From: Bacteroidaceae bacterium
GTDB taxonomy: Bacteria > Bacteroidota > Bacteroidia > Bacteroidales > Bacteroidaceae
Assembly (NCBI GenBank): GCA_017408685.1
Contig: JAFQUE010000006.1
Span: forward strand, 1 to 53,862
Reading direction: 5' to 3'
DNA: 53,862 nt
In this document: in pieces, positions 4,001-42,530 of the stretch
Position numbering within the stretch: the stretch's first letter is position 1
How the letters are laid out: each line of letters starts with the position of its first letter
Notes under the pieces: generated by a model
What the model was told of the DNA's origin: nothing
The model's input: only the letters and a program-made list of their open reading frames with translations
The model's database searches: none
Program-made: the position numbers and the translations under genes

Positions 4001-4935
4001 TTTCTGTAGTAACCCATGGTGCCACGGTGCAACACCACAAACCCCAGTTCCTGTATGTGGGGCAGGTTACTGCGGATGTCTACCGTTACGTTGCTGCCAT
4101 TTTCCGTTACACGCATTGTTACACCGTTATCTTCGGCTTTGGGCAACTTGAAGCGGTGCGTCTTCTCATTGCCCTTGCTGTTTTTCATTGTAACCTCGGC
4201 ATGGTACTTTGAACCCTTCCGTGGTGTAAAAGTGAATGAACCCTTTCCCATGTGTTCAGGAGTGCTCTCAAGCAACGGGGTGTTGTCTTCGAATATTGTG
4301 ATTTTCCCCTCGCCGAACAGTCCGTTTTCACCGCGCAACTCATATGCAACGCGGCTCTCCAAACCCGCTACAAGGTTACCGCCTTCGGGGAAGAATGTGA
4401 GGGACGCCTCGGGCAGTTCTGCGCTTATCCACTTTCCGTCGCTCTTGAAGCCTCTGCGGCGGTCGAGCATGTTCTTGAAGTCCCAGTTGTCGGCATTTAC
4501 TTTATCGAAAACAGCGAATACGCGGCTGAATATTGCACTCTTGTCCCAATTGAGCATGTAGCGTGTGTAGGCACGTACCTCGTAGTAACCCGAAAGCAAG
4601 AGCGGGTTGAGTTCAAATTCTCCGTAACAACTGCCGTCTTCGCCAATCTTGTATTTCTTTGTCTCCACCACATACCCTTCAGGTGCAACCAGTTCCACAT
4701 AAAGCACTTTGCTGAGCGTGCTCGGACGGTTGTCGCTTCCGAATGAGACGTATGCCTTGAACCACATTGTTTCGCCAAGATAGTAGGCTGTATTGTCAAA
4801 GTGCAGGAATACACGTTCCTGCTGCATGACCTGTCCCACTTGCATTGCGCGGAAAGCAAGACTGTCAATTCGTCCTTGGGCGGTACCTCGGATGACCAAT
4901 GCGAGAAGGATGAATGATAATATGGCTTTTTTCAT
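1021..4935 (-). CDS. Secreted MG2-domain protein with C-terminal Sel1 repeats
   Basis: This is a 1304-residue protein. I chose the start MKKAILSFILL at 4935 because it begins a clear signal peptide (to about residue 20, ending TAQG); the frame is open 14 codons further upstream. The N-terminal 800 residues resemble large Bacteroidetes MG2/macroglobulin-like envelope proteins: QERVFLHFDNTAYYLGETMWFKAYV is the usual opening, with later beta-rich segments. The last 200 or so residues change character into Sel1-like tetratricopeptide repeats (for example IYHIGLCYLNGTG, AQYDLAVMYDNGTG, MADCYYSGKGVDRD). Such proteins are periplasmic or surface-exposed and the exact role is unknown. The combination of MG2 domains with Sel1 repeats in one chain is unusual. 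It is separated from the upstream operon by a terminator and carries its own promoter. Confidence 0.85.
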   Translation of the reverse strand: MKKAILSFILLALVIRGTAQGRIDSLAFRAMQVGQVMQQERVFLHFDNTAYYLGETMWFKAYVSFGSDNRPSTLSKVLYVELVAPEGYVVETKKYKIGEDGSCYGEFELNPLLLSGYYEVRAYTRYMLNWDKSAIFSRVFAVFDKVNADNWDFKNMLDRRRGFKSDGKWISAELPEASLTFFPEGGNLVAGLESRVAYELRGENGLFGEGKITIFEDNTPLLESTPEHMGKGSFTFTPRKGSKYHAEVTMKNSKGNEKTHRFKLPKAEDNGVTMRVTENGSNVTVDIRSNLPHIQELGFVVLHRGTMGYYRKFGTAAGSNSFTFAKDSLREGVNRAIIFTGSETPLAERHFFVTHDSLQRTDTRTVKLNVTANGNQPDNATLSPHEKVTIKVSRDDGKPITGMSDLSLTVSDATGRQTTSYSHNLYTYMLLGSELKGYIPDAAQYFDPQNTARKEHLDLIMLTHGWTSYDWSMLTRTHIDDFQPIERGITIKGRFFLKAVNKKFGELGKVNIIPQKDVLTRMDISPNGKEVTTTTFRTDSTGSFVIETDDFYGTRVASFKPQTAMRQHGSIAYRFALDRYYSPAFRLYDYWENHLGKPMSKSQSDSLVKLNPFEFMLSSLEVVAKKKHEFNARPPHSEMRFNYLDEWEYAQDVTYLNMFNTYEDEIYNNVKSEGHSILTLLDEMKNSESMSFNEKYNILKENNLIDKELYLVSANNEDNIKLDNIINTLHEAYSVHNDRNEDVTSMIRHSGNNSNNRYIGNIRYSDEGITIPVNHDYDHILTANDVVLSAMRRHNYNWAYWVQLMVVLGEYDHNKTPEPDMEYLRGLPDADKMTNFKEIVIRSDEKTRLQFENRGTHWTPLTRMLENKIPIQKFYRGFLSQSYLYGGNGVDGCPDATAFWENLCNVQGGGINYPINPNYVACLIPYTQEERTQGVVPEFAAPGSTMRYTSVQGYSESKQFYSPDYSNMTPQEKDYRRTLCWVPEVRIAEGIAIAEFYNSSNCSNITVDVTGRDNDIMFSNDNITCTRFAERERAQRVEPKVTKPEEAPLDSATLASCEFHHEKALIYYNQKRYKEALTMFIELAQYRYAPAIYHIGLCYLNGTGLTRNDSQAFKFMSEAAEGGHAGAQYDLAVMYDNGTGTEIDSKLAHENFISAAEQEEPRALLEMYRRYMTGKMVEQDKCAAEEFLFRAAEKKHPQAMFEYGKLLTDDGRDGIGYIKAAVESKLDEALIYMYEHEAKEGNYRQAYMYAKELHLKKNHEGTRRMADCYYSGKGVDRDKSLAKDLYRDAANAGNEEAKEILKKL

Positions 4936-4954
4936 GGGCTTCCGTATTTCTTCG

Positions 4955-4985
4955 CTAAGATACAGAAAATGGCGCAAGTGTACAA
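4955..4985 (-). promoter_or_regulatory. Putative promoter of the MG2-Sel1 gene, overlapping a terminator hairpin
   Basis: Read on the minus strand this is TTG (4985-4983), 20 bp, then TATCTTAG (4962-4955), one base off the Bacteroidetes TTG-N19-21-TAnnTTTG consensus. It lies 20 bp upstream of the ATG at 4935. The -33 TTG sits in the loop of the hairpin at 4968-5000, so terminator and promoter share bases. Confidence 0.5.
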
Positions 4986-5000
4986 CACACTTGCGCCATT
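4964..5000 (-). terminator. Rho-independent terminator of the RiPP/GT2 operon
   Basis: A perfect 14-bp inverted repeat (arms 4968-4981 and 4987-5000, five-base loop) is followed on the minus strand by TTTTC. It lies 27 bases after the stop codon of the glycosyltransferase gene and so closes the long operon that begins near 13.1 kb. Confidence 0.8.
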
Positions 5001-5027
5001 ATGGTACAGTTGCTTTCTTCTGTCATC

Positions 5028-5897
5028 TCATTTGTATGCGGCAAAGGCCGCTATCTGCTCTTTGAGATATTCCAACGCCGGGTAATCCTTTATGCGTTCA
5101 TTCCATTCTGCTATTATCCTTTCAATGTATAACCGGCATATAGGTTTGCCTCCAAAGTAAGAAACGATTTTTGAAACAGCCAATATCTCGGTCTTGAAAT
5201 CGGTCAATATCGTTTCTTCGCATTCCGGTGCAGCCATAATGGAACCGGGGCGGTGCCTGTAGTAGTATAGCACATCGTCGGTGAAAGCAATCTTTTTGAC
5301 TTCGGACATGTAGTCGACCAGTGCAATAAAGTCCTGCCCCCGGCGTAGAGCGGTCGACGGGTGTCTTTTGACAATGTCGCTCCTTATCAGTTTGTCCCAC
5401 AACACCGGACTGCATTCATTGTTGAGCAAATCGTTGTTCAGGAACTCTTCTCTGCCGATGACTGCATTCCCATATTTGTTCCAAATATCCAACCTTCTTC
5501 CGGTCACCCCGTTCATGTCTACAGCCCTGGCTTTGCATACTGCCATGTCGGCATTGCTGCCGGAAACCAGCGTATAGAGTCGCCTGTACATCTCCTTGTC
5601 TACATAATCGTCAGAGTCGACAACCCCGATATATTTGCCGGTGGCTGCCGACACGCCTGAATTCCGGGCAGGGCCTTGCCCTTGGTTTGTTTGATGTATG
5701 ACCTTCAGGTTTGCATGCATTGCGGCATATTTGTCAAGAATCTGTGCGCAACCGTCTGTGGAACAGTCATCCACGGCAATTATTTCAATTTCTTTCATTG
5801 TCTGGGCCAGTAATGAGTCCAGACATTCCCTCAGGTATGGTTCTGTATTGTATACAGGAACTACGATACTTATAAGGCACTCTCCCGGCCCGTTCAT
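5028..5897 (-). CDS. Family 2 glycosyltransferase
   Basis: This 289-residue GT-A fold glycosyltransferase shows the family 2 signature: ISIVVPVYNTEPYL at residues 9-22, the nucleotide-binding DDCSTDG at 43-49 and the metal-binding DSDD at 94-97. GT2 enzymes move a sugar from a nucleotide-sugar donor onto a saccharide, lipid or peptide acceptor. No membrane segment is evident, so it is likely cytoplasmic or peripheral. The start codon overlaps the stop of the M42 peptidase gene by 4 bases (ATGA), so the two are translationally coupled and the gene belongs to the radical-SAM operon. It could glycosylate the peptide product or simply be a passenger; acceptor and donor cannot be read from sequence. 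Confidence 0.9.
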   Translation of the reverse strand: MNGPGECLISIVVPVYNTEPYLRECLDSLLAQTMKEIEIIAVDDCSTDGCAQILDKYAAMHANLKVIHQTNQGQGPARNSGVSAATGKYIGVVDSDDYVDKEMYRRLYTLVSGSNADMAVCKARAVDMNGVTGRRLDIWNKYGNAVIGREEFLNNDLLNNECSPVLWDKLIRSDIVKRHPSTALRRGQDFIALVDYMSEVKKIAFTDDVLYYYRHRPGSIMAAPECEETILTDFKTEILAVSKIVSYFGGKPICRLYIERIIAEWNERIKDYPALEYLKEQIAAFAAYK

Positions 5898-6931
5898 GAA
5901 AGGAAGGCTTTAAGGAGTGATACGCAGTTCTTTATATCGGTGATGGATACCACTTCCGATGGGGAGTGCATATACCTTACGGGGTATGAGACGATTGCAG
6001 TCTGTATTCCCCTGCATTGTATCTGTATGGCCCTTGCTTCGGTTCCGCTGGCATTGGGGTGTCCCTCCATCTGGTATGGAATTCCTGCCTTGACGGCTGT
6101 CTGCTTCAGTTCCTCTATCAGTTCCCTGTCGGTGTCGGGGCTGACACACAATGAAGGTCCGTTGCCGAGTCGCACATCGCCATAAAGTTTCTGGTTAACG
6201 TTGGGGTAGTCTGTGGCATGAGTGGCGTCTATCACTATTGCAATGTCGGGATGTATCCGGGCCGCAGCCGGCATTGCCCCCCTGAGCCCTATTTCTTCCT
6301 GGACCGTAGATACAAAGTATATGTCATATCCTGTGTCGCAACCGTGCAACTCACGCATTAAATCCAGAAGAATCATGCTTCCAATCTTGTTGTCGGCGGA
6401 ACGGGTGGCAAAGTAATCGTCGCTCATTTGCACGCATTCGGTAGAAAAGGTTACCGGGTCACCTATGGAAACGCATTGCAGCGCGTGTTCTCTTGAACTG
6501 AAACCGAGGTCGAGCCAGGTGTCCTCAATGGAGAACGAAGCGCGCTCTTTTTCGTTCAGCAGATGTATGGGCTTGCGTCCCACAATTCCCAGGAACGAGT
6601 TGTCGCCATGATGGACTGCAAGTCTTGTGCCCGGCAGCAACATGAGGTCTATGCCGCCTATGGGGACCACATACAGCATGCCGTTCTCATCGATGTACTT
6701 TATCATAAAGCCCACCTCGTCTATGTGGGCGGTAATCATCACTCTCTTTTTGCCGTCGTTGCTCTTGTGGGCCACAATGTTCCCGAGCGTGTCGGAATAG
6801 ATTTCGTCAACATACTTTTCCGCATGTTTCCTGAATAGTTCCTGCCCTTGTTTCTCGAACCCCGAGGGGGTAGGGATATCCAGGACTTCTTTCAAATAGA
6901 GTGCGCTATCTTTGTTGAAATGATTTTCCAT
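5894..6931 (-). CDS. M42 family zinc/cobalt aminopeptidase
   Basis: This 345-residue protein has the dinuclear metal-site motifs of M42 peptidases in order: TAHIDEVG (His69, Asp71), RSADNKIG (bridging Asp), QEEIGLRGA (catalytic Glu and a metal Glu), IDATHATD (metal Asp) and YMHSPSE (metal His). Length is normal for the family. M42 enzymes are cytoplasmic aminopeptidases that form large tetrahedral complexes and trim peptides from the N-terminus. The gene starts 3 bases after the upstream radical SAM gene and overlaps the GT2 gene by 4 bases, so it is embedded in the operon. Trimming of leader peptide or of a modified product is a reasonable guess from context; general peptide salvage is the conservative alternative. 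Confidence 0.92.
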   Translation of the reverse strand: MENHFNKDSALYLKEVLDIPTPSGFEKQGQELFRKHAEKYVDEIYSDTLGNIVAHKSNDGKKRVMITAHIDEVGFMIKYIDENGMLYVVPIGGIDLMLLPGTRLAVHHGDNSFLGIVGRKPIHLLNEKERASFSIEDTWLDLGFSSREHALQCVSIGDPVTFSTECVQMSDDYFATRSADNKIGSMILLDLMRELHGCDTGYDIYFVSTVQEEIGLRGAMPAAARIHPDIAIVIDATHATDYPNVNQKLYGDVRLGNGPSLCVSPDTDRELIEELKQTAVKAGIPYQMEGHPNASGTEARAIQIQCRGIQTAIVSYPVRYMHSPSEVVSITDIKNCVSLLKAFLS

Positions 6932-6934
6932 AAG

Positions 6935-7879
6935 TCATTTAAAAGGAATAAAAGAGTTATCACCTAATACTTCTGCTGTCTTTTTCCATGTTCCGGGACA
7001 TTGTGGCTGCACAAGGCACTCCTTGCAGGGCTTGAACCCGGCTCCGCCGTCTCCCTTGAGGTTGAAGCGTATCCTGTTGTCTGCCGGGTTCTCATATGGC
7101 AGGTAGAGTGCAGCCATCTCTTCCTCACTCTCATACTTCTGCAGGAAGGGCCAATAATAGGGGTCGATACAGCAGAACGGAGTGTTGAAAATCCTTACGG
7201 TTCTGTTCCTGCCGCGTTTTCTGTATTCAATTACCTTGTCCAAGGCCTCCTCAAGATAAGGCCTTGAAACGGAGAACGGTACTGCGCTGTCCTCCTCGTT
7301 AGTCAGTGCGGTTCCGGTGAGGTCTATGTTGCAAAGGACCCATGGGACATTGTCGGGGAATGTCTCATACAACCAATCGGTATATTCCGGGAGTCCTTTA
7401 TATGTCCTGTTGTTGATTATGTGTTTTATGGTAACATTGACTCCCGCCCGAATAAGGTTTCTCACTCCAAGCAGTGATTTCCTGAAACTGCCCGGCACCG
7501 AAGTCACTCTGTCGTGCTCCTCCTCCATGAAACTATGAAAGGCTGTCGTCAGTTCGAAACCGCTTCCTGCAACCTCTATGAAACTCTCCAGGAATTCCTG
7601 GTTTGAGAATTTCAATGAATTCGACAGGATACCGAACTTCAGTCCTTTCCCTTTGATGTATGATATGAGATTTAGAATGTCCTTGTAGATTGTAGGCTCT
7701 CCGCCGGAAATAAGAACCATTTCTATTTTCTCCTGCTCTGTTGCCAGGTCTACGGCGCGGCACAGTTCTTCTATTGTCAGTTGTGTGTATTTCCGTGCGT
7801 TCAATGCGCAGGGGCAGAAAATGCATTTCTCATTGCATACATATGATGGTGAAACAAATAACGTTCTCATGGATATCAT
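6935..7879 (-). CDS. Radical SAM protein with CxxxCxxCxC motif (second copy)
   Basis: This is a 314-residue radical SAM enzyme. The cluster-binding cysteines are C15, C19 and C22 in YVCNEKCIFCPC, with an unusual extra cysteine at C24. SGGEPTIY is the SAM-binding GGE motif. The C-terminus carries a short Cys set (PCKECLVQPQCPGTW) that could hold an auxiliary cluster. It is a clear paralogue of the 9632-10567 protein: both share the CPC motif, TYKxLPEY, LCNIDxxGTA, DPYYWxF and the CPGTW ending. Each copy follows a SPASM-type radical SAM gene. The reaction is unknown; a role in modifying the precursor peptide encoded at 9320-9520 is inferred from linkage. Another methionine 9 bases downstream could be the true start. 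Confidence 0.88.
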   Translation of the reverse strand: MISMRTLFVSPSYVCNEKCIFCPCALNARKYTQLTIEELCRAVDLATEQEKIEMVLISGGEPTIYKDILNLISYIKGKGLKFGILSNSLKFSNQEFLESFIEVAGSGFELTTAFHSFMEEEHDRVTSVPGSFRKSLLGVRNLIRAGVNVTIKHIINNRTYKGLPEYTDWLYETFPDNVPWVLCNIDLTGTALTNEEDSAVPFSVSRPYLEEALDKVIEYRKRGRNRTVRIFNTPFCCIDPYYWPFLQKYESEEEMAALYLPYENPADNRIRFNLKGDGGAGFKPCKECLVQPQCPGTWKKTAEVLGDNSFIPFK

Positions 7880-7917
7880 GATTTAACTATTTCTACAGCA
7901 CTTTTTCAAATCTCTTC

Positions 7918-9243
7918 TCAAGCCAACAATATATTCTCAAGGATTGACAGTGTCTGCTTGCAGAACCTCGCGTCGGGTTTGTGTATGGTTCCGTATTTCC
8001 TTTCTGTATTTATGACGCAACCACCGCCGCAGATTCCCAATGCCGGGCACTTGCGGCACTCTTCCATATACAGGGGCGAGCGTTTCTGCCACTCCTTGTA
8101 TTCCGGTGACAGTGCGGGGTTGAATTCTTCGTTGCAGATGTCGGTTATGAAATGTTTCTTGTCCATAATATGCTCATGGCAAATGCCTACAGCACCATCG
8201 GGTGCAATGGCAATCTGTCTGCCTCCGGCAGCGTTGCAGTCGAACAGGCATGGATGTTTCCTGTCGAACACCTGAAGGCGTCGGCCTGTCCTGTTCTCGG
8301 TTATTCCATGCCTCTTCAATTCAAAGTATGCCGATGATACAAACTCTGCGGCAGCATTGTCGTAGTCATTGTCAAGTTGTATGATGTCATTGTCTATGAT
8401 TACGTTGAAACCGATATTGGTTGCTCCTGCAGTGTTTATGAAGTAATCAAGGACCTGGGATTTTCTTGCAATGGTCTGCGGAGTCAAGGTGCAGGCTACG
8501 TTCAGGTCAATGCCGGCCTCCTTGCACTTTCTGAAGTTTTTTGTGGCGAGTTCCCATGCGAGGGTCTTGAAGTCGGGGAATACCCTGTTTACCGAAGCCT
8601 CTCTGTCGCCATCGAGGGAAAATGTAAGTGTTATATCGTGTTTTTTGATGAAAGCAATGTCGCTGTCATCGAGCAATGTACCGTTGGTCACAACCAGCAT
8701 TTTTGTCCTTTCCGGCAGAATCCCTTCGGCAATAAAAGCCGTTATCCTTTCTATTGCATGGTACAGTACTCTTTTATTGTGAAAAGGTTCTCCGCCATAG
8801 AAAATTATGCTTTTCCTTTCGTCAAACCTTTTTTTGTCAAGGTTTATCAGCCGCACAAAGAAATCAAGTCCTTTGTCGAACGTCTCGCCTGACATAATCC
8901 CTGCCTTGCTGTTCTTGACCTCGGATTGCCTCTCGAAACAATATCGGCATGCGAGATTGCAGTTCTTTGTCAAGAAGAAGTATGCTGTTGATATATATGG
9001 CTCCTGTATTTCACTCCTGCACTTCTGGAGCAGTTTCTCGTCATCCTCGTGCGAACAGATGAAACCGCCATCGGAAAGTATACCGTACATCTCTGAACCC
9101 GGTTCGAGGTCGATTCCTCTTTTCTCCATGTCTATTTCACAGTCACCTATGTGCACAGTTCCCATCTTGAGGGAGTGGTACAACATGTTCTTTCCGTTCC
9201 TGTGGAACAGATGTGCATATTCCGATAGTCTGTATTGGGCCAT
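7918..9243 (-). CDS. Radical SAM/SPASM peptide maturase (second copy)
   Basis: A 441-residue radical SAM enzyme with C95, C99 and C102 (CNLACRYC), the GGEPF motif, a VTNGT segment and a C-terminal SPASM domain with multiple cysteines (CLFDCNAAGG, CHEH, CRKCPALGICGGGC). Residues 1-80 resemble the small recognition domain found at the N-terminus of peptide maturases: LSEYAHLFHRNGKNMLYHSL aligns with LSQHVEYSVNGRDIMFYNTL of the stand-alone protein at 11967-12251. SPASM enzymes typically bind two auxiliary 4Fe-4S clusters and install C-C, C-S or other links in peptide side chains. It is the first gene after the precursor peptide, separated from it by a hairpin, and is the best candidate for the main modifying enzyme. 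Confidence 0.9.
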   Translation of the reverse strand: MAQYRLSEYAHLFHRNGKNMLYHSLKMGTVHIGDCEIDMEKRGIDLEPGSEMYGILSDGGFICSHEDDEKLLQKCRSEIQEPYISTAYFFLTKNCNLACRYCFERQSEVKNSKAGIMSGETFDKGLDFFVRLINLDKKRFDERKSIIFYGGEPFHNKRVLYHAIERITAFIAEGILPERTKMLVVTNGTLLDDSDIAFIKKHDITLTFSLDGDREASVNRVFPDFKTLAWELATKNFRKCKEAGIDLNVACTLTPQTIARKSQVLDYFINTAGATNIGFNVIIDNDIIQLDNDYDNAAAEFVSSAYFELKRHGITENRTGRRLQVFDRKHPCLFDCNAAGGRQIAIAPDGAVGICHEHIMDKKHFITDICNEEFNPALSPEYKEWQKRSPLYMEECRKCPALGICGGGCVINTERKYGTIHKPDARFCKQTLSILENILLA

Positions 9244-9269
9244 AATATAATATGTTTTCTTAAATTAAA

Positions 9270-9299
9270 GGATATGGGTATCCTGGGATACCCATATCC
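9270..9299 (-). terminator. Hairpin after the precursor gene (likely attenuator)
   Basis: A perfect 14-bp inverted repeat (arms 9270-9283 and 9286-9299, two-base loop) lies 20 bases beyond the precursor stop codon. On the minus strand it is followed by TTTAATTTAAG, a weak U-tract. Such hairpins commonly stabilise precursor mRNA or let only part of transcription continue into maturase genes. Partial termination is inferred, not shown. Confidence 0.75.
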
Positions 9300-9319
9300 G
9301 GTTGATAGGGTTTTGCGAA

Positions 9320-9520
9320 TCAGTTGCAGATTGCACCCCAGTTGTTCCAACCGTTGTTGATCCAAGACTCCCACGCACGGTTCTCGAACTTTGAAGCCAA
9401 AGAACAGTTGCTTGACTCGTTGTTTGAATCATACATAGCAGTGATGCTGGCTGCATTACCCTCGAGTTCGATACTTACCTCAGTACCCAACTTCTGTGAA
9501 AATACTTTTACAGTCTTCAT
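9320..9520 (-). CDS. Putative RiPP precursor peptide with aromatic-x-Asn core
   Basis: This is a 66-residue peptide from the ATG at 9520; an upstream methionine 11 codons earlier is possible but less likely. Residues 1-34 look like a leader (MKTVKVFSQKLGTEVSIELE then a hydrophilic stretch). The C-terminal third is packed with aromatic and Asn residues: FEN at 45-47, WES at 50-52, WIN at 53-55, WNN at 58-60, WGA at 61-63, plus Cys39 and Cys65 near the end. Repeated aromatic-x-Asn triplets are the known substrate pattern of radical SAM enzymes that make three-residue cyclophanes (triceptides). The gene is surrounded by five radical SAM genes and an RRE-like gene on the same strand. I do not recognise this precursor as a member of a named family. 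There is no double-Gly leader cleavage site. Confidence 0.82.
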   Translation of the reverse strand: MKTVKVFSQKLGTEVSIELEGNAASITAMYDSNNESSNCSLASKFENRAWESWINNGWNNWGAICN

Positions 9521-9551
9521 AAGGATTAATATTAAATGGTTAAACAAATTC

Positions 9552-9584
9552 ACATCTCTCCTTCCTGTTGTCCGGAGAGGATGT
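9552..9584. promoter_or_regulatory. Hairpin upstream of the precursor gene
   Basis: ACATCTCTCC (9552-9561) pairs with GGAGAGGATGT (9574-9584) with one bulged base and a 12-base loop. It lies 31 bases upstream of the precursor ATG on the minus strand. In the plus direction it is followed by seven Ts, but no plus-strand gene precedes it, so a 5'-end stabilising or processing structure for the precursor mRNA is more plausible than a terminator. Confidence 0.55.
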
Positions 9585-9631
9585 TTTTTTAAAATTCAAT
9601 AAAAATGTTTGTTGCAGTTTCGGTGTGTGTT

Positions 9632-10567
9632 TTATCCCGCAACAATGCTTTTCAGCATTGACTCGTCATAATTGTTTCTGAAACTGCTCCATGTCCCGGG
9701 ACAATGCCTGTTTAGCGCGCATTTCTCACAGGCCTTGAACAATGGGCCGCTGTCGCTGCTTACATCCCACATCAATTCACTGTCGGGAACCCTGTATGCC
9801 GTTACGTTCTCCTGTGTTGAACTCTCTATGAATCCCCAATAATAGGGGTCCAGCAGGCAAAGCGGGGTCGTAAGTACCTTCACATTCCGCTTGTGTCCCT
9901 GTTTCCTTTGTTCAATGACAATGTCAAGCGCCTGTTGCAGATAGGGGATTGAATCCCTGAAGTCTACTGCCACATTGCTCTTGTTTGAAGCGGCTGTGCC
10001 GTTTATGTCTATGTTGCATAACAACAGCGTGACGTTGTCCTTGAATACGGATGTTGCCCATTTGATGTATTCTGGCAAATCCTTGTATGTGTAGTTGACA
10101 ATGTTGTTCTTTATTGACAACCTTACATTGTGCTTGAGCATGTTGGCAACCCCTTTCATGCTCCTCTCGAAACTTCCCTTGTGCTGTGTAAGGAAATCGT
10201 GCTTCTCGGGTATATGGCTGTGGAAGGCTACCGTTACATCAAGTTCCGGCCCGTCGATTATCGAGAACATGCGTTCCGCAAATGCCTCATCGGCAAGGCG
10301 CAGGGCATTTGTGAGCATGCTTATATTCACGTTGAGTCCCTTGATGAATTCCAGTATCCTGAAGAATTCGGGATGAATTGTAGGTTCGCCGCCCGACAGC
10401 AGTATGTTTTCCACACCCCGTTCCTCTATTGCCCGGCGTATTGTTGAACATATCTCGTCGTATGTCAGCGACGGTACGTTCACAGAACCCTCGGAACATG
10501 GGCAAAAGCGGCAATGTTCGTTGCATACATATCCTATTGCACAGTATAGTGTCTTCATGTCTGTCAT
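9632..10567 (-). CDS. Radical SAM protein with CxxxCxxCxC motif (first copy)
   Basis: This is a 311-residue protein from the ATG at 10567, chosen because it overlaps the upstream SPASM gene by the 4-base ATGA junction. The frame is open further upstream but inside that gene. Cysteines C15, C19, C22 and C24 (YVCNEHCRFCPC) form the radical SAM motif plus one extra Cys. SGGEPTIH is the SAM-binding segment. The C-terminus has a compact Cys set (CEKCALNRHCPGTW). It is the paralogue of 6935-7879. Such small radical SAM proteins lack a full SPASM domain. The function is unknown; paired occurrence with a SPASM enzyme twice in one operon suggests the two act as partners. Confidence 0.88.
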   Translation of the reverse strand: MTDMKTLYCAIGYVCNEHCRFCPCSEGSVNVPSLTYDEICSTIRRAIEERGVENILLSGGEPTIHPEFFRILEFIKGLNVNISMLTNALRLADEAFAERMFSIIDGPELDVTVAFHSHIPEKHDFLTQHKGSFERSMKGVANMLKHNVRLSIKNNIVNYTYKDLPEYIKWATSVFKDNVTLLLCNIDINGTAASNKSNVAVDFRDSIPYLQQALDIVIEQRKQGHKRNVKVLTTPLCLLDPYYWGFIESSTQENVTAYRVPDSELMWDVSSDSGPLFKACEKCALNRHCPGTWSSFRNNYDESMLKSIVAG

Positions 10568-11970
10568 CTGTTTAACTTGACTCTGCCTCTTGTCAATGAC
10601 AATATTGAGTCTGGGTCGGTGAGAATAAGTCTTATCAATTCGGGATAGAGTGTCCTGTTTGCAACACACTCCTGGTTGTCGACACCCTCGACACACCCTT
10701 TCTTGTACTTTATGGCCGTTGTGCAGCCGCCTTTGCAGTAGAACCGGAATGGACAAGTATCACACTCTTCAATATGTTTCCTGTTGAAGAAGTCTCTGCA
10801 TGACGACTTGGCTTGCGCTACAAGGGATATGAGGTCCTGCCTGTCATGTACCGAACCTATTGATTCTTCCTTGTAGTCGGTGACGTCGCACGGGAAAATC
10901 AGACCGTCCTGGTCAAAGGCAATCATCTTTGTTCCGCCCATGCAACCCCGTGAGGTGCATATGTTGGTTTTGCTCCTCACAAGAAGGTTCATCAACTTCT
11001 CCTGTACATTCAATTCGGTTATCCGGTATCCTCTCCTGTTCAGTTCAACCAGTTTGGCCAGTAGCGTCCTTTCGGCCGCTTCCACCTGCTCCTGTGTCAG
11101 GCATAGTCCCGCGTCTTTCATTACCGGATTGTCCTTTACCAGGTTCAGTTTGAAACATGGTGCCTTGACTTCTGTTGCAAGGAACTCTATTATCTCTTCA
11201 AGATAGGGGAAACTTCTGCTTGTAAGCACCGTTACAACACCGAAGTTCTTCAGTTTCTCATTCTTCTCGAGAATTCTCACACCCCGCATCATCTTATCAA
11301 ATGACGGTTTGCCGCTCATCAATGGCCGGTGCATGTTCTGTACAGTCTCAATGCCGTCAATGCTTATGCCCAGGCGAATATTCCTTGCCGCGCACTCCCT
11401 GGCCAACTCCTCGGTTATGAGGCTTGCATTGGTCTCAATGGAAATCAACGGGTATAATCCGGCCTGCTTGAACATATCGTCCATCCTCTTTATCTTGTCG
11501 AACGCTATGAGCGGTTCCCCTCCCCAAGGCTGCACGCAGAAGTCGGTAATCCTGTATTTGGTACAATAATCTATGATATAGTTGATTATGGCGTCAAGGT
11601 TCTCGTCGGAAATGGTGCGCACTTTCTCTTCAAGGTGTCTGAAACAGTATATGCAACGGAAATTGCATGCCTGTGTCAAATCGAATATGAAGAATGTGGG
11701 CTGTACCTTCTCGCTTGTCTGACACTGCATGCAGGCGCTGTTCTCAATCAGACCCCTCTGTATCAGTTTGAACGCAAGTGCGTCGTCAATCTTCTTTGTT
11801 TCCACTTGCTCATACAACTCCTGCGAGAGTATGATTGAACATCCGTTTTCCGGGTTCAACAGGAACCCGTTCCTGCCGCTATTGTCCTTGAAAAGGTAAC
11901 CTCCGGCAAAACGGCCGGTATTGTCGCCGGCGTCAAATGGGTTTATGTGTGTACAATCTATCGTGTTCAT
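10564..11970 (-). CDS. Radical SAM/SPASM peptide maturase (first copy)
   Basis: A 468-residue enzyme. The radical SAM cysteines are C102, C106 and C109 (ACNFRCIYC). QPWGGEPLIAFDK is the GGE motif, and ISIETNASLI and GISIDGIE are typical strand motifs. The C-terminal SPASM region has many cysteines (CTSRGCMGG, FPCDVTDY, CDTCPFRFYCKGGC). The first 80 residues lack cluster ligands and may be a substrate-recognition domain. SPASM maturases form cross-links or other changes in ribosomal peptides. Four-base ATGA overlaps link it to the RRE-like gene upstream and the small radical SAM gene downstream, so the three proteins are probably made in fixed ratio. Confidence 0.9.
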   Translation of the reverse strand: MNTIDCTHINPFDAGDNTGRFAGGYLFKDNSGRNGFLLNPENGCSIILSQELYEQVETKKIDDALAFKLIQRGLIENSACMQCQTSEKVQPTFFIFDLTQACNFRCIYCFRHLEEKVRTISDENLDAIINYIIDYCTKYRITDFCVQPWGGEPLIAFDKIKRMDDMFKQAGLYPLISIETNASLITEELARECAARNIRLGISIDGIETVQNMHRPLMSGKPSFDKMMRGVRILEKNEKLKNFGVVTVLTSRSFPYLEEIIEFLATEVKAPCFKLNLVKDNPVMKDAGLCLTQEQVEAAERTLLAKLVELNRRGYRITELNVQEKLMNLLVRSKTNICTSRGCMGGTKMIAFDQDGLIFPCDVTDYKEESIGSVHDRQDLISLVAQAKSSCRDFFNRKHIEECDTCPFRFYCKGGCTTAIKYKKGCVEGVDNQECVANRTLYPELIRLILTDPDSILSLTRGRVKLNR

Positions 11971-12251
11971 TCAATAACTTTCTTTTGTGCCAATAATGTA
12001 TATACCGACTCCGGGTCTTTGTCAAAACATTCTTTGATAAGGGCATGTATGTCGTGACATCCCTTTTCCAGTTCTTTTACAAACCGTGCGGCTGCCTCGT
12101 CGCTTATGGCGCTTGCCAGCAGCAGGGAGTCGAACAGCGTGTTGTAGAACATTATATCCCGTCCGTTTACGGAATATTCCACGTGCTGCGACAGGTAATA
12201 GAGACCTATGTTCTCTTTGTTGAAAAAATTGGAATATAAGATGTTTCGCAT
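11967..12251 (-). CDS. Stand-alone RRE/PqqD-like peptide recognition protein
   Basis: This is a 94-residue protein from the ATG at 12251; an open extension upstream would run into the preceding gene. The sequence YLSQHVEYSVNGRDIMFYNTLFDSLLLAS followed by helices and a final short strand matches the pattern of the small winged-helix recognition domain at the N-terminus of many radical SAM peptide maturases, and it aligns by eye with residues 6-27 of the SPASM enzyme at 7918-9243. Such domains bind the leader peptide and deliver it to the enzyme. It starts 20 bases after the first radical SAM gene and overlaps the SPASM gene by 4 bases. Assignment rests on pattern and context, so moderate certainty. 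Confidence 0.62.
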   Translation of the reverse strand: MRNILYSNFFNKENIGLYYLSQHVEYSVNGRDIMFYNTLFDSLLLASAISDEAAARFVKELEKGCHDIHALIKECFDKDPESVYTLLAQKKVIE

Positions 12252-12271
12252 AGTAAATCTGAATAGTCTGT

Positions 12272-13120
12272 TTAAATGTTTTTGCTGCACAACCCGTTGC
12301 ATGCATGCTCGCAGGTCTGTGATACGGGTAAGGTCACGAGTCCCGTTGTCCTTATGTTCCCCAGCCGTTTTCCGTCGCAATATATAATATCTCCGTTTTC
12401 GGTAATCCTTATGTATCTTGAACCGTCGAAACAGCGTGTACCTTTAATCCCTTTTGTGTCGAAATTCCACCAGTTGTCAATGCTGACATTGTTTTCGCAC
12501 GCAATCCTGAACTTGTCACGTTCGTCGGGAGACATCTTCTCTATTGCCGAGTCTACGAGTTCCTTCATTATACTGTTCTGCCTGTCATCATACGATTCCG
12601 GGTATCTTTGCCCCTGTTCTGTCCCACGCATGAGTTTCGGTAACAGTATTATTCCATGGTTCTGATACTCCTTTATGAACTCTGTAATCTCTTCAAATTT
12701 GCCGGGAATCATTACCACTGTCGAATAGACAAAGAAACCTGCTTCCATCAACTTCCTGTAATGTCGCATGAACGGTTCCATGTGCTGTTTCCTGTAAGGA
12801 TAATGCACGCTGGCGTTTATGAACAGGAAATTGTCGGGGCTCACTTGCTCTATGAATCTCTCTACGGGCAAAGTGAGATTGGTGTTCATGCTTATGTAAT
12901 GTCCTTTCTGCTCAAGTCTGTTGCATAAGGCATGAATCTCCGGCACCAGAAAAGGCTCGCCGCCGGTCAAATGGAACAATACAGGTTCATTGACTTTGTC
13001 AATGAATGAAAAGTCAACCGGAGTGCATTCGACCTTTCTTGTATCGGCATTCTGCAGGCAATAGTAACAGTTGAGGTTGCACCTCTCTGTCAATATCCAG
13101 TCGACTACGGTTGTTACCAT
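12272..13120 (-). CDS. Radical SAM protein, first gene of the RiPP operon
   Basis: This 282-residue protein carries C14, C18 and C21 (ERCNLNCYYC) and LTGGEPFL as the SAM-binding motif. The C-terminal region has a reduced cysteine set (TRCFDG, IYCDGKRLGN, CEHACNGLC) like a trimmed SPASM or twitch domain that would hold one auxiliary cluster. It is not closely similar to the four other radical SAM proteins in the operon, so it probably catalyses a different step. As the promoter-proximal gene it is likely essential to the pathway. Substrate and reaction cannot be read from sequence. Confidence 0.88.
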   Translation of the reverse strand: MVTTVVDWILTERCNLNCYYCLQNADTRKVECTPVDFSFIDKVNEPVLFHLTGGEPFLVPEIHALCNRLEQKGHYISMNTNLTLPVERFIEQVSPDNFLFINASVHYPYRKQHMEPFMRHYRKLMEAGFFVYSTVVMIPGKFEEITEFIKEYQNHGIILLPKLMRGTEQGQRYPESYDDRQNSIMKELVDSAIEKMSPDERDKFRIACENNVSIDNWWNFDTKGIKGTRCFDGSRYIRITENGDIIYCDGKRLGNIRTTGLVTLPVSQTCEHACNGLCSKNI

Positions 13121-13213
13121 TCTCGCTATCGGGTTTTAAGTGTATCGTCTATCGTGTTGCGGGAATGTCATCCGTGTCTGTAAAAATTACCAGACTGTGT
13201 TTTCCCAATTTTG

Positions 13214-13221
13214 CAAATATA
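13214..13221 (-). promoter_or_regulatory. Putative -7 element of the RiPP operon promoter
   Basis: The minus strand reads TATATTTG followed by C, a perfect TAnnTTTG match, 93 bases upstream of the ATG at 13120. No convincing TTG lies at the usual distance. The rest of the 306-base gap 13121-13426 holds only this element and the terminator at 13387. Confidence 0.5.
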
Positions 13222-13386
13222 GAACTATGCTCTGTATTTTACCTCCCCTCATTGTTAATTTATGTTAATAGAGCGTGGAAGTTTGTAACAATTTATGCTA
13301 CAAAGGCGCAAAATGCATGTTGTTGATTGATAAACGATTTGTCAGGTGTTGAATGTTTTTCAACACTTTTGCGAATAATGAATTGT

Positions 13387-13413
13387 AAAAAAAAGGGACC
13401 GAAGTCCCTTTTT
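13387..13413 (-). terminator. Terminator of the sialidase gene
   Basis: The stem GGGAC/GTCCC with a TTCG tetraloop (13395-13408) is flanked by eight As on the left and five Ts on the right, so on the minus strand the stem is followed by TTTTTTTT. It lies 13 bases after the sialidase stop codon. Confidence 0.88.
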
Positions 13414-13426
13414 AAATAGTGTCAGG

Positions 13427-16360
13427 TTATTTTATCAGAACCTTTTTACCGTCGATAATGTAGATGCCTTTGTCGGGCTTTTCTACCTTGCGGCCATGCA
13501 GGTCGTAGATGGCTTTCTCTTTGACAATGCCGTCTTGCGTCTCTTCTATTCCCGTGATATCTTTCTTGGGTATCGAGAATGCTCCTTTGGTTATGGTTTC
13601 AATGGAGAAGTTCTTGTACACAATGGTATAGTCGGCGCCATGGGTGTTCTCTTCGTAAAGGAAAGCGATTGTCGAGTCTTTCCGGAAACACATTGTAGAG
13701 TATGCCGATGGCAGGTACGATACCTGATAACGACCGTCCCAATCCTTTGCGAAGTTGGCGGGAGTGTTGTAGTCGCTTTCGCCGGCAAGTTCCTTGTAGT
13801 AGATTCCCACGTTGCTGCGTCCGCCGCCCAACGGTAGTGACTGCAATGCGAGCCATGTGTCGGCACCGTCCTCGTTGCGCACCACGGGAAATATCATAAT
13901 TTCGCCGTTTGTAGAGTTGTCCTTTGCTACAACACCGTTGACACTGCTGTTTGATGTGGCATGTGTACCCCATGAACCTAATGCTTTTTGAGGGTCGGTG
14001 AAGGAGAATATGTTGAAGTGGCGTCCGCCATTGCAACGTGAACTTATCACTACATTGCCGTTTGGCAGTTCTTCAACTTTGGGCTCGTCGGCACCGTTGG
14101 GTATCGGGGCTGTGTTTGTGCCGCCAAGCACATCCCATGTGCCACCGAAATCATCACTGTATAGCACAAAGTTTGTATATGTGGCATTCCTGTTCTTCAA
14201 GAGTACTGCACAGTAAAGGCGGTAGTAACCGTTTACCTTTACATAGCGGCTCTGGTGAATCTTGCCCGAACCTACGAACATTGACATGACAGGCCCGTGT
14301 GAACTTCCGTCCCATTTCGAGTATATCGGTTCGGCAATGTCAACAGGTCCGCTCCATGTGGCGCCGTTGTCCTCGCTGTAGAACCGCGTAATGTTCTGGT
14401 GGTTGTTGCGTGTGCCGTTCTGGAACGAAACGTTGCCGGCGCAACTGAGTACAAGCACGCGGCTGCTTTCGCGGTCGGCTACAATGCAGGGGTCGCCGAA
14501 GCCCACATGCATGAAGTCAGGCGAGTCTGCACCCTTTCCCTCTATTATGGCGAACCGGTTGCCCCATGTGGCACCGTTGTCCTTGCTTATGCGTGCCAGC
14601 AGGTCTATGCGCCCGTTCTTGACCACGCCAATGTCGGCGCCGCTGTGCCGGTAGTCGGCAACTGCAATCAGGTCGCCGTTGTTTGCCATGGCAATGGCGG
14701 GAATGCGGTAAGGAATACCTCCTTTTTCTGTCACAAAGATTTCCTGTGACTCCTCGGCAGCGGCACCGCGTGCAATGGTTGCATAGAAATCCATGGTGTT
14801 GGCAAACATGTTGCTTCCCGATGTCACGGTGAACGAGAGTGAATTTTCCTTCTGGTTGCTCACCTTGACACTCTGTGCTGTTGCCTGGCTCGCGGTCACT
14901 CCATTCATGCCGGCAGGTGTTACGGTTACATCGCTTGTTCCCGAACTCTTGAAACTGAAACGGTAACCGGCAATGCAGTAACCTTCGTCGGCGCTGATAT
15001 TGTATGTTGCGGTATGCACTCCATTCACCTTGGCCGAGGCAAGGCATGTAAAGAGTTGTATGTCACCGTCGGCGTTGTAACTTGCCATGTTGTTGCGTGC
15101 CTTTGATTCGGAAAGGTTTATGTGTGGAGTTGCGGTCGATTGCCAGGTCGACGCCCATGTCTTTTCCTTGTTGCTCGAGGTCCAGTCACCGCTGCCGGTG
15201 TTTACCGGGTACTCGATCTGTGCAAAGCGCACGTTCAGGGTTGAACCTGCGTCGGCACCTTCATCCCAGAATGCAAGCCTGTTGTCACGGTTGTTGACTT
15301 TGTTGGCAGGGAATCCTTTTTCATGCATGTAAAAGTAGGTTTCGCCATTGCCAAGGTCACTTGACGGGGTGAACTGCCAAAGGTCGGTATAACCTGCAAG
15401 GATGTTCGTGGTTTCCAGCAGAACCGGGTATGAGTTGCTGCCGGTGGTTCCGGTCATGGCAGTAGGTGCTGCAAGCACTCTGGTGGTACCTGCCTGTTTG
15501 TTGTAGAGTCTGTAGCCGGTAGTGTTGTTGCCTACAAAAGCCCACAACTGGCTGTCGTCGGTGGCGTCGGAAAGAACGTCGTCAAGTGCAATGTAATCGG
15601 CACTCCTGTTGTCGTCAATTACGAATCCGCTGGCGGCAATCTGCATGGTATACCAAACGGTACCCTGCGCGAACTTGCCGTCAACAATTCTTGTCGGAGT
15701 GAACAACTGCTCCGCTTCGCCTTGCTGCGGGTCGGTTACCTCAAGCATGAAATCTACAATGTGCCCGCCGTTTGCCATGAAGTCTCCGAATTTGCCGTCT
15801 TGGTCGCCGTTGGGGTCAATGTTGCACCAATCGAGTTTCACGCGCACGCGGTACGTACCTTTCTGTCTTGGTATTATAAATTGCGGCAATGCAACCGTGC
15901 TGCGGTCATTGCCGGTGATTGTGGCACCTGTGCTGTTCTTGCCGTTCTCGTCGCTCGACGCACCGTTGTTGTAGAACGAATAACTCACAAGGTCACCGGT
16001 AGGGGTGTAACCGTCTGAGGCAATTCCTGCCGTGAAGCCGTTATTGTCGCTGTCGATATAAACATAACTATTTATCCAACTTCCTGTTATGTCTGTAACC
16101 AGCGTTACAAAGTCGCCCGCGCCGGCCATCATCACCACGTTGCTTTTGTCTACATAGCATTGCGAGAAATCGCTCCTGTTTATGTTCAGGGTGTTTATGG
16201 CATGGTCGGGGTACGATGTGCTTGTAAGGGTAATGGAGTTGATGCCGCGGCCACTATCTGTTCTTGCTCCTGTGAATCCGGGGGTGTAATCGATGTCGGC
16301 CAAGACTGATAAAGGAATGCATAAGGCCAATATGAGTACAATGCTCTTCACTCTTTTCAT
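13427..16360 (-). CDS. Secreted sialidase (GH33) with N-terminal accessory domains and C-terminal sorting tail
   Basis: A 977-residue protein. I chose the start MKRVKSIVLILALCIPL at 16360 because it opens a signal peptide. The catalytic beta-propeller is marked by YRIP near residue 548 (the arginine of the triad that binds the sialic acid carboxylate) and Asp-boxes SKDNGATWG, SEDNGATWS and SDDFGGTWD. About 540 residues precede it, including a beta-rich module and a region (GTVWYTMQIA through LAFWDEGADAGST) also present in the sialidase at 45169-48531. The last 40 residues (IYDLHGRKV, GIYIIDGKKVLIK) are a Bacteroidales C-terminal sorting-type tail. It releases terminal sialic acid from host glycoproteins at the cell surface or outside. 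It lies directly downstream of the GH2 gene, possibly one transcript. Confidence 0.95.
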   Translation of the reverse strand: MKRVKSIVLILALCIPLSVLADIDYTPGFTGARTDSGRGINSITLTSTSYPDHAINTLNINRSDFSQCYVDKSNVVMMAGAGDFVTLVTDITGSWINSYVYIDSDNNGFTAGIASDGYTPTGDLVSYSFYNNGASSDENGKNSTGATITGNDRSTVALPQFIIPRQKGTYRVRVKLDWCNIDPNGDQDGKFGDFMANGGHIVDFMLEVTDPQQGEAEQLFTPTRIVDGKFAQGTVWYTMQIAASGFVIDDNRSADYIALDDVLSDATDDSQLWAFVGNNTTGYRLYNKQAGTTRVLAAPTAMTGTTGSNSYPVLLETTNILAGYTDLWQFTPSSDLGNGETYFYMHEKGFPANKVNNRDNRLAFWDEGADAGSTLNVRFAQIEYPVNTGSGDWTSSNKEKTWASTWQSTATPHINLSESKARNNMASYNADGDIQLFTCLASAKVNGVHTATYNISADEGYCIAGYRFSFKSSGTSDVTVTPAGMNGVTASQATAQSVKVSNQKENSLSFTVTSGSNMFANTMDFYATIARGAAAEESQEIFVTEKGGIPYRIPAIAMANNGDLIAVADYRHSGADIGVVKNGRIDLLARISKDNGATWGNRFAIIEGKGADSPDFMHVGFGDPCIVADRESSRVLVLSCAGNVSFQNGTRNNHQNITRFYSEDNGATWSGPVDIAEPIYSKWDGSSHGPVMSMFVGSGKIHQSRYVKVNGYYRLYCAVLLKNRNATYTNFVLYSDDFGGTWDVLGGTNTAPIPNGADEPKVEELPNGNVVISSRCNGGRHFNIFSFTDPQKALGSWGTHATSNSSVNGVVAKDNSTNGEIMIFPVVRNEDGADTWLALQSLPLGGGRSNVGIYYKELAGESDYNTPANFAKDWDGRYQVSYLPSAYSTMCFRKDSTIAFLYEENTHGADYTIVYKNFSIETITKGAFSIPKKDITGIEETQDGIVKEKAIYDLHGRKVEKPDKGIYIIDGKKVLIK

Positions 16361-16390
16361 GGTTGCAATATGATACTGTTTAATTTCATA

Positions 16391-16420
16391 CGAGGGGCAT
16401 GCTGTGCTGCACACCCCTCG
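16391..16420 (-). promoter_or_regulatory. Intergenic hairpin between GH2 and sialidase genes
   Basis: CGAGGGG (16391-16397) pairs with its complement at 16414-16420 around a GC-rich loop. No U-tract follows on the minus strand, so it may be an mRNA processing or stability element within a GH2-sialidase transcript rather than a full terminator. Confidence 0.5.
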
Positions 16421-36950: not shown

Positions 36951-37952
36951 TTATTTCTTTTCGAGTTTCTTTCGCTCTTTTTCAAAGTCCTCGATGAAAT
37001 GTAGTTCAACAGGTGATAAAGTATTGAGTGTTCTCTCCTTGAATTTATTGTACTCAGTATTGGCTTTCATTTTTGCGATCTCTGCCGAAATTGTACCTGC
37101 GTGTGTCAACAGTTCCTTCCCCGATAACTTAAGAAAATCATCTAACTTTTCAATCCAATCTTTCATGTACATTGGAGTGTGGCTTTTTGCCTGCAACTCT
37201 GCAAAGTCTAAATACAGGTTCACAATGCGGTTTAGAATATCTAATTCGTCCTTTGTCAGATAGTTTTTGGCGAATTCTGCGTCGGTCTTTTTAGGAAGCA
37301 TGCCAGTCCATGTTGTCAATCCCATAAAATCCTTGTCGGCATTCGCTCTGTTATAGATAATCTCTGCCGCAGTGTGCCCGTGAACAGAGTAATGCATTTT
37401 ATTCTGTACAGTTGCAAAAAATTTTTTTGTCGCGTCTGTGCGAGGGTCATAATCAATGCTTAATGCATATATTTCCAGGATTTTCCTGTAGAAAATCTTC
37501 TCTGACGAGCGGATATCACGTATACGTGAAAGTAGTTCATCGAAATAATTGCCTCCGCCGGCGTTCTTTAGCAATTCGTCATTCAGGACGAATCCTTTTA
37601 TTAAATATTCTTTTAATACTTGTGTCGCCCAAATGCGGAATTGTACACCGCGGTACGATTTTACGCGATAGCCGACACTGATAATCATATCAAGGTTGTA
37701 ATATGCAACTTGATACACTTTTCTGTCAGTGGCAGTTGTTGCAAAAAATGCAACAACTGCATTTTGCTCTAATTCTCCATCCTCAAAGATATTCTTAATG
37801 TGTCTTGAAATGGTTGATTTGTTGCGTTGGAACAACTCCGCCATTTGGTCTATGGTTAACCATACAGTTTCATTGGCAAGGGTTACTTCAATTCTGTTTT
37901 CTCCATCTTGTGTTTTATACAGAATTATTTGACCTTTATCATGTTGTGTCAT
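36951..37952 (-). CDS. RhuM-family (virulence RhuM-like) protein inside the cas operon
   Basis: A 333-residue protein. VWLTIDQMAELFQRNKSTISRHIKNIF (about 29-55) looks like a helix-turn-helix segment. YNLDMIISVGYRVKSYRGVQFRIWATQVLKEYLIKGF and the later ALSIDYDP, FFATVQNKMHYSVHGHTAAEIIYNRA segments match the RhuM family. Length is normal. RhuM proteins are widespread near defence and mobile genes but no biochemical function is established. It begins 1 base after the cas9 stop and ends 23 bases before the cas1 start, on the same strand, so it is transcribed with the cas genes. This is not part of the standard II-C gene set (cas9-cas1-cas2). It may be a cargo gene, a regulator, or an added defence module. 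Confidence 0.85.
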   Translation of the reverse strand: MTQHDKGQIILYKTQDGENRIEVTLANETVWLTIDQMAELFQRNKSTISRHIKNIFEDGELEQNAVVAFFATTATDRKVYQVAYYNLDMIISVGYRVKSYRGVQFRIWATQVLKEYLIKGFVLNDELLKNAGGGNYFDELLSRIRDIRSSEKIFYRKILEIYALSIDYDPRTDATKKFFATVQNKMHYSVHGHTAAEIIYNRANADKDFMGLTTWTGMLPKKTDAEFAKNYLTKDELDILNRIVNLYLDFAELQAKSHTPMYMKDWIEKLDDFLKLSGKELLTHAGTISAEIAKMKANTEYNKFKERTLNTLSPVELHFIEDFEKERKKLEKK

Positions 37953-42444: not shown

Positions 42445-42466
42445 TGTGAAAACTTTTGTTGTTCTA

Positions 42467-42498: not shown

Positions 42499-42530
42499 AG
42501 TCACTCTGACATTTCACAGCGAGTGCAGTA

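Follow-up and report, generated by a model that had tools for sequence, protein, structure and literature searches.

A candidate radical SAM peptide pathway with a nearly fixed tryptophan-rich core in Bacteroidales-type genomes

Based on gene content and on the comparison of seven loci, we propose that nine genes in a stretch of DNA from a gut bacterium of the Bacteroidaceae (assembly GCA_017408685.1, contig JAFQUE010000006.1, positions 1 to 53,862; this whole stretch of 53,862 nucleotides is called the window) belong to a new family of ribosomally synthesized and post-translationally modified peptides (RiPPs). In our best reading the family is rare and sporadically distributed, in few Bacteroidales-type genomes, and it is likely that the genes make up a self-contained pathway that leads to one fixed Trp-rich product. 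The genes run along the minus strand from position 13120 to 5028 and encode, in this order, a small radical S-adenosylmethionine (SAM) protein named rS_E, a 94-residue protein, the radical SAM protein B1, the smaller radical SAM protein C1, a precursor peptide, the radical SAM proteins B2 and C2, an M42 aminopeptidase and a family 2 glycosyltransferase (GT2). All the open reading frames (ORFs) listed for this cluster by the first-pass annotation are present, and Pfam bears out the radical SAM, M42 and GT2 domains, with Radical_SAM over its cut-off in five of the nine proteins and a complete CX3CX2C motif in each of the five. As had been claimed, the precursor is flanked by two pairs that each join a SPASM protein to a small radical SAM protein; B2 is the only protein over the SPASM cut-off of Pfam (23.7 bits, cut-off 21.5), and B1 reaches 17.0 bits.

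The precursor and its gene neighbourhoods

The precursor (MKTVKVFSQKLGTEVSIELEGNAASITAMYDSNNESSNCSLASKFENRAWESWINNGWNNWGAICN in the window) and the 94-residue protein have no Pfam or NCBIfam match at E up to 0.1, and a literature search of open-licence papers returned none recognisable as dealing with this system, in agreement with the earlier statement that no named RiPP class is known to have such a gene content. A scan of the genome_contigs collection (84,980 species, each represented by a single genome), using patterns common to C1 and C2, yielded six confirmed loci, L034 to L039, four of which (L034–L037) carry the locus. All nine genes stand in the same order in L034 and L037 (both Bacteroidales; water deer and water buffalo, respectively) and in L036 (Candidatus Gallipaludibacter merdavium, whose genus belongs to the Bacteroidales). 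The contig of L035 begins inside B1 and holds the last seven genes; it is filed as a Clostridia metagenome-assembled genome (MAG), and because its nearest relative is L036 we suspect from sequence similarity that the contig is misplaced. A minimal form, composed of a 94-residue-type protein, B1, one C enzyme, the precursor and B2, was found in L045 (genome G500) and L084 (genome G1413). These two loci, compared over 20.0 and 14.6 kb, contain no second C enzyme and no match to M42 or GT2, and rS_E matches there over the generic radical SAM part only. Besides the window, the tally is three loci with nine genes, one with the last seven and two minimal ones.

B2 and a C-type enzyme are present in all seven loci, and a 94-residue-type protein in all six, the window included, whose contig spans its place. 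The single C enzyme of the minimal form shows roughly the same similarity to C1 as to C2 (45.6 and 47.8% identity in L045, 46.8 and 46.0% in L084). Since the minimal form was found twice, the working core probably consists of the 94-residue partner, B1, C and B2, the remainder being added tailoring genes. The genome of L037 and G1413 belong to one family and carry different forms, so the form is not tied to the host family. Apart from the nine, no gene is common to more than two of the five expanded loci. The recurrence of the gene set and the precursor in six other loci places the locus beyond chance, and the precursor, described at first as new-looking, proves to be real: each of these six loci pairs it with the same core enzymes. 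All five C-enzyme relatives at no less than 45% identity (L034–L037 and L045) have the small ORF adjoining the enzymes, and L084, found through the precursor profile, carries the enzymes too; the first-pass proposal thus withstood its own genomic test. A short conserved precursor beside modifying enzymes, which is the RiPP-type arrangement suggested initially, is therefore seen in seven loci.

Carriers are rare. The C-family profile detected three of 393 genomes of the order (the window's own, G500 and G772, the last of which has a contig identical to that of L034 and so is its source genome) and one of 395 genomes of the phylum (its own), in searches that scored only five candidates in most listed genomes, so that some carriers may be missed. 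C1 alone detected one of 399 genomes of the family, again its own. G500 is absent from the results of the genome_contigs scan, being either missed or not in that collection. With the precursor profile, two of 57 genomes were found in the family of L037's genome (its own and G1413). A search with the precursor alone matched 57 of 399 genomes of the window's family at E up to 1; as the best value beyond the window is 0.016, these are taken as chance matches. The two remaining loci of the scan are more distant and have no precursor match at E 1e-3. L038, from a Ruminococcus MAG, encodes B1 (40% identity), C (36%) and a possibly related 95-residue ORF (24% to that of the window) on a contig that ends soon after C; relatives of its C enzyme were found in one of 200 genomes, its own. 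L039, from Parcubacteria, has a C match of 25% and consists of distantly related radical SAM genes in an array. Eleven CX3CX2C-bearing ORFs of at least 150 residues lie there on one strand (L039:632-15037), beside a 102-residue ORF (2934-3242) that ends in a long Gly-Ser-His repeat, and the array looks like an enlarged His-Xaa-Ser (Hxs) type system.

The precursor is 66–67 residues long in all seven loci and outdoes every enzyme in conservation in each of the seven tabulated pairs. Its identity to the window peptide is 95, 88, 85 and 97% in L034–L037, 64% in L045 and 57% in L084 (tblastn). Over the seven loci 32 of 67 alignment columns are invariant, the end reads F..R.WE.W...GWNNWGAICN, and the block GWNNWGAICN is identical throughout. 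Variable core peptides had been expected in other Bacteroidales; instead, no part of the locus is more conserved than the core. For residues 45–66, 15 of the 22 codons vary among five loci and a single residue does (Met/Ile 54), as compared with 36 of 44 codons and 11 residues over positions 1–44. The codons vary while the core residues hold, which argues that one product is kept. Synonymous divergence is near saturation in ten pairs (dS 0.89 to 3.5, not computable in two) and dN is 0.006–0.093, values that place the precursor under purifying selection. Position 52 is Ala in both minimal forms and Ser otherwise, and position 55 is Asp in L084 and Asn otherwise. The leader has the conserved pattern MK.V.VFS.KL.....I.L.GN..SIT; residues 32–40 are the most variable stretch and resemble a leader-core linker.

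All four core Trp residues sit two residues ahead of a possible acceptor. W53-x-N55 (Asp in L084) and W58-N-N60 match the Trp-Asn/Asp sites of XncB and OscB, and the W-E-S/A and W-G-A sites would require Ser or Ala acceptors. In PMC11002830, Asn and Asp are both described as accepting Trp cross-links made by OscB, and Ser or Ala acceptors are reported with Phe and His. As both are OscB acceptors, the Asp/Asn swap at residue 55 counts in favour of the pathway proposed below.

A strong hairpin is predicted in the gap after the precursor gene in all seven loci (z −3.99 to −7.26; −5.22 in the window), with none of 200 shuffles as stable in each case, and no comparable folding is seen in the gap that precedes the precursor gene (z +0.88 to −2.65). 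The hairpin sequences differ widely between loci, though the stems of the window and L037 resemble each other. In L084 the hairpin is followed by a run of seven T, as in an intrinsic terminator; the T run is weaker in the other loci. We infer that the hairpin, as an attenuator or a stabiliser of the mRNA, may bring the precursor to a higher level than the enzymes encoded downstream.

Relationships of the enzymes and of the 94-residue partner

The C family and B1 are distant homologues of HxsC and HxsB. This kinship, like the minimal form, the hairpin and the empty site in a sister species, was not noticed in the first-pass annotation. HxsC (TIGR03977) is the best NCBIfam match of C1 and C2 (115.0 and 119.7 bits, cut-off 267.9), and the C family aligns with it at 99.6% over 269 columns in hhalign, with the internal Cys and the C-terminal CX2CX5C in register. 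B1 aligns with HxsB at 99.4% over 357 columns. In profile-profile comparison B2 also matches HxsB (97.6%) as well as B1 (98.1%), so that the link between B1 and HxsB is less specific than that between C and HxsC. A tree of the C enzymes, computed without L084 and carrying a warning of long branches, splits 12 C rows from four HxsC rows by a fully supported branch. Within it, support for a single C1 group and a single C2 group is moderate (73/49 and 85/100, respectively), L045 has no settled place and L038 has a long branch. Within the window C1 and C2 share 40% identity and B1 and B2 26%.

The best NCBIfam scores of B1, 102–115 bits, are to a sulfatase maturase, PapB, DynA and HxsB, and all equivalog scores stay below their cut-offs. 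The best curated match of B2 is the FibroRumin maturase TIGR04136 (287.3 bits, and 288.4 for B2 of L045, against a cut-off of 400). Among solved structures, B1 and B2 match entries for sulfatase maturases as well as 5wgg, whose listed name is radical SAM domain protein and which we take to be CteB; the matches of the C family, to SkfB, YydG and a cytosylglucuronate decarboxylase, extend over the radical SAM core. Identity of B1 is 52–85% to L034–L037 and L045 and 54% to L084; that of rS_E is 69, 48 and 70% in L034, L036 and L037; M42 and GT2 are 58–83% and 43–64% identical to the other four expanded loci. A viperin-type antiviral role of rS_E was considered and rejected, the pVip matches covering about residues 4–95, i.e. 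the generic radical SAM core only. No other match to a defence system was returned by PADLOC among the seven proteins tested, a set that leaves out B1, B2, C1 and C2.

The 94-residue protein is a candidate RiPP recognition element (RRE), as suggested by a weak PqqD-like signal in the expected helix region. A signal as high was given by four of 300 column shuffles with a profile of six sequences and, less favourably, by 11 of 300 with seven. Among solved structures it matches only designed proteins, with a best E of 0.0003, and, more weakly, unrelated chains. The stand-alone RRE-like protein announced by the first-pass annotation is thus present as a small protein (94 residues from the ATG at 12251), and the shuffles support its RRE label weakly. 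An assignment as HxsD was discarded: the protein holds HxsD's position, yet the hhalign probability is 0.1% and NCBIfam gives no match.

A proposed pathway and its alternatives

How might these genes act together? In the pathway that we favour, the 94-residue partner would hold the conserved leader, and B1 with its C partner, together with B2, would modify the C-terminal F..R.WE.W.[ND].GWNNWGAICN; these are the genes of the minimal form. The chemistry would most likely consist of side-chain cross-links on the four Trp residues, possibly via Cys65. In the expanded form C2 and rS_E would add further radical chemistry, M42 would trim the leader from the N-terminus until stopped by the modified block, and GT2 would add a sugar. 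The cassette has no exporter, hence the product may remain intracellular and resemble a cofactor or a signal, a last step that we put forward tentatively. The greater confidence expressed at the outset covers a RiPP with one fixed product, a reading for which the minimal form counts in that it separates the core machinery from the tailoring genes. It overlaps with the antibiotic explanation considered below, which shares the first three steps (leader binding, core modification and the added radical chemistry of the expanded form).

The roles given to M42 and GT2 would follow the logic of mycofactocin by analogy. According to PMC7491314, that system works through the chaperone MftB together with a radical SAM enzyme, a peptidase and a GT2, and an aminopeptidase would in theory suffice to release the mycofactocin core. 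Like the MftA–F system, the locus combines a short precursor whose C-terminus would be modified, a small putative chaperone, radical SAM chemistry, a peptidase and a GT2. Unlike it, the locus has five radical SAM enzymes instead of one, M42 in place of MftE and no MftD-like gene among the nine; the core is not Val-Tyr and the precursor ends in ICN. The scores of B1 against MftC (61.5 of 265 bits) and of GT2 against MftF TIGR03965 (53.8 of 280 bits) are both far under the cut-off. A bolder proposal, which we regard as rather doubtful, is a new peptide-derived cofactor of gut anaerobes that is Trp-based, multiply cross-linked and glycosylated, built by five radical SAM enzymes (three and the partner in the minimal form) along the logic of mycofactocin and pyrroloquinoline quinone and unrelated to both. 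To our knowledge, RiPP pathways with five radical SAM enzymes are very unusual.

Several points weigh against the favoured pathway. Its product and the modifications are predictions from the genes, and the literature consulted assigns no reaction to the C enzymes. The leader-binding role of the 94-residue protein is weak, and the kinship of B1 with HxsB is not very specific given the match of B2. M42 and GT2 are not seen in two of the seven loci on the stretches compared, so trimming and glycosylation would not be universal. The conserved C-terminal stretch, of about 18–22 residues, is far longer than the part retained in mycofactocin. No partner oxidoreductase, as expected for a redox cofactor, is seen beside the cassette, there being no widely shared tenth gene. 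Finally, the invariant core would fit an antibiotic with one fixed target as well.

Darobactin and dynobactin have a Trp-containing cross-linked core made by a SPASM enzyme. An exported antibiotic of this kind, whose core fits one essential target and whose export and leader removal are encoded elsewhere, we consider unlikely. It would agree with the Trp-rich core, with the sporadic, cassette-like distribution and with the scores of B1 against DynA (106.1 bits; 123 in L045), DarE (67.2 bits; 91.1 in L045) and cyclophane-forming enzymes, but all maturase scores fall far below their cut-offs (450 for DynA), several radical SAM enzymes are present here, and the precursor matches no NCBIfam model. 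The cluster was said from the start to lack a transporter, and indeed no transporter, exporter or exporting peptidase is found by Pfam among the nine genes; the flanking genes of the relatives are not all annotated, and a nearby exporter is possible there. An aminopeptidase and a GT2 are conserved instead, and no common immunity gene was seen, no additional gene being shared by more than two of the five expanded loci. In PMC10352776, a peptidase-containing ATP-binding cassette transporter (PCAT) accompanies all but two of the nine Bacteroidales RiPP loci studied; such an exporter, usual in that setting, is missing from this cassette.

It is also conceivable, and in our view improbable, that the 66-residue peptide is a small subunit kept at full length as a built-in protein cofactor with Trp-derived cross-links. 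By way of comparison, the gamma subunit of quinohemoprotein amine dehydrogenase reportedly carries Trp-derived cross-links. The constant peptide length in seven of seven loci and the match of B2 to the quinohemoprotein maturation protein TIGR03906 (87.0 bits; 91.5 in L045) point this way; against it, the score is far under the cut-off of 453, the variable stretch at residues 32–40 looks like a leader-core linker, and no dehydrogenase subunit is seen, any further gene being confined to at most two of the five expanded loci. Least probable of all, and very much so, is membership in the Hxs system (HxsA–D; TIGR03977, TIGR03978) with a diverged peptide. The two share the order of small protein, B and C, with a large and a small radical SAM enzyme side by side and a short peptide gene near, and the long alignments of the C family and B1 with HxsC and HxsB agree with this kinship. 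The precursor has no His-Xaa-Ser repeats, however, and its core is Trp-rich and invariant; the small protein is not HxsD by profile, the locus adds a second SPASM enzyme, M42 and GT2, the curated cut-offs are reached neither for HxsC nor for HxsB (102.5 of 370), and the fully supported branch of the tree, which carries a warning of long branches, keeps the two groups apart.

The proposed pathway also differs in part from other known systems. Triceptide systems (XncB, OscB, MscB, YhhB, HaaB) likewise employ SPASM enzymes on W-x-N and W-x-D motifs, according to PMC11002830; unlike them, the present loci always include a C-type partner, B1 scores 90.5 of 445 bits against YhhB and 86.8 of 310 against GrrM/OscB, with B2 lower, and the cross-link here is predicted. 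FibroRumin provides the best curated match of B2, under its cut-off, but the peptides annotated as FibroRumin on a Campylobacter plasmid are rich in Cys and show no apparent relation to the Trp-rich precursor. A search for FibroRumin in the family of the Ruminococcus genome returned none of 100 genomes and, the controls being silent as well, is uninformative. On the Campylobacter plasmid, an ORF annotated as hypothetical overlaps the maturase gene (L085:8388-10481); we presume it to resemble a UvrA/ABC-like ATPase.

What are the implications of such a locus? An HxsC-like enzyme, of a type to which the literature consulted assigns no reaction, is here paired with a short fixed substrate, and the natural minimal system of L045 and L084, four proteins and the peptide, opens the HxsC-like reaction to direct testing. 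A cofactor would be of a new kind, and one would then have to ask which gut metabolism relies on it; in the case of an antibiotic, the fixed core would point to one conserved target.

Gene layout, insertion site and neighbouring genes

The features of the locus are collected in the table. C1 has 311 residues from the ATG at 10567 and 308 from a second ATG at 10558; in most searches the C1 query began at 10561, one residue before the second ATG. Counted from 10567, three of the eight junctions overlap by four bases (the second ATG would turn one of them into a 5-base gap), and the remaining gaps measure 3, 20, 38, 76 and 111 bases, those of 76 and 111 bases flanking the precursor. The description of the genes as mostly touching or overlapping by 4 bases therefore holds for half of the junctions, namely the three overlaps and the 3-base gap; the other half are 20–111 bases apart.

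Features of the locus in the window
Feature	Position	Strand	Description
rS_E	12272..13120	-	small radical SAM protein, 282 residues, first gene; Radical_SAM 43.2 bits; CNLNCYYC; expanded form only
94-residue partner	11967..12251	-	ATG at 12251; candidate stand-alone RRE; no family match
B1	10564..11970	-	radical SAM/SPASM protein, 468 residues; distant HxsB homologue
C1	9632..10567	-	radical SAM protein; distant HxsC homologue; C-terminal CX2CX5C
Precursor peptide	9320..9520	-	66 residues; conserved C-terminus F..R.WE.W.[ND].GWNNWGAICN
RNA hairpin	9270..9299	-	predicted; between precursor gene and B2, 20 bases past the precursor stop codon
B2	7918..9243	-	radical SAM/SPASM protein, 441 residues; FibroRumin-maturase-like, below cut-off
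C2	6935..7879	-	second HxsC-like radical SAM protein, 314 residues; C1 paralogue; expanded form only
M42 aminopeptidase	5894..6931	-	345 residues; Peptidase_M42 281.9 bits (Pfam); expanded form only
GT2 glycosyltransferase	5028..5897	-	289 residues; Glycos_transf_2 133.8 bits (Pfam); expanded form only
Stretch without counterpart in sister-species locus L081	4933..13492		

In a congener of a sister species (genome G1383, locus L081), the two flanking genes (window 1021-4977, after the cluster, and the sialidase-like 13427-16414, before it) are adjacent, about 0.4 kb apart and without the cluster, and synteny with the window runs on to about 26.5 kb of the window. Two further congeners (L079, L080) have no match past the flanking gene on the stretches compared; their contigs end soon and are uninformative on the sialidase side. 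In G599, the sole other genome of G500's family in the collection searched, the precursor is absent, and different sequence lies between the same two flanking genes. A segment at L045:6688-6793 is about 87% identical, inverted, to the matching place in G599 (L055), whose neighbour genes are at about 69–73%, and is perhaps a small element, invertible or mobile, that borders the cassette. In the window, no direct or inverted word of nine or more bases is shared by the borders (4933-5030 against 13100-13500), and Pfam finds no integrase among the nine genes. In the five loci for which GC content was compared, cassette and flanks are within about 0.03 of each other, which gives no sign of recent transfer; since the cassette follows its host, the gains are probably not very recent.

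An origin from phage or plasmid was considered and set aside, as the matches are weak or distant. The precursor and the C family have no confirmed relative in viral contigs, and the precursor has no plasmid match. B2 has one viral-contig relative at 22%, two weak phage records and one plasmid FibroRumin maturase. C1 matches 375 plasmid records, all under 60% identity; the 20 listed are at 22–28%, most of them annotated as HxsC.

Some neighbouring genes deserve mention. In L034 (5294-6442) and L035 (5955-7034), proteins 34% identical to each other, with a hydrophobic N-terminal part and TrkA_N (RCK-like) domains, adjoin genes of the cassette at different places. Such TrkA_N-type neighbours, seen in two of the five expanded loci, are possibly a channel-like partner. 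In L037 a 151-residue ORF without a Pfam match lies between B2 and C2 (9028-9483); it is missing from the other four expanded loci. Farther along the window, a minus-strand ORF of 1516 residues (37954-42504), which contains MKRILGLDLGTNSIGWAVL near the start of its translation, is presumably Cas9-like, and the 333-residue ORF beside it (36951-37952) is one that we take to encode a RhuM-type-like protein.

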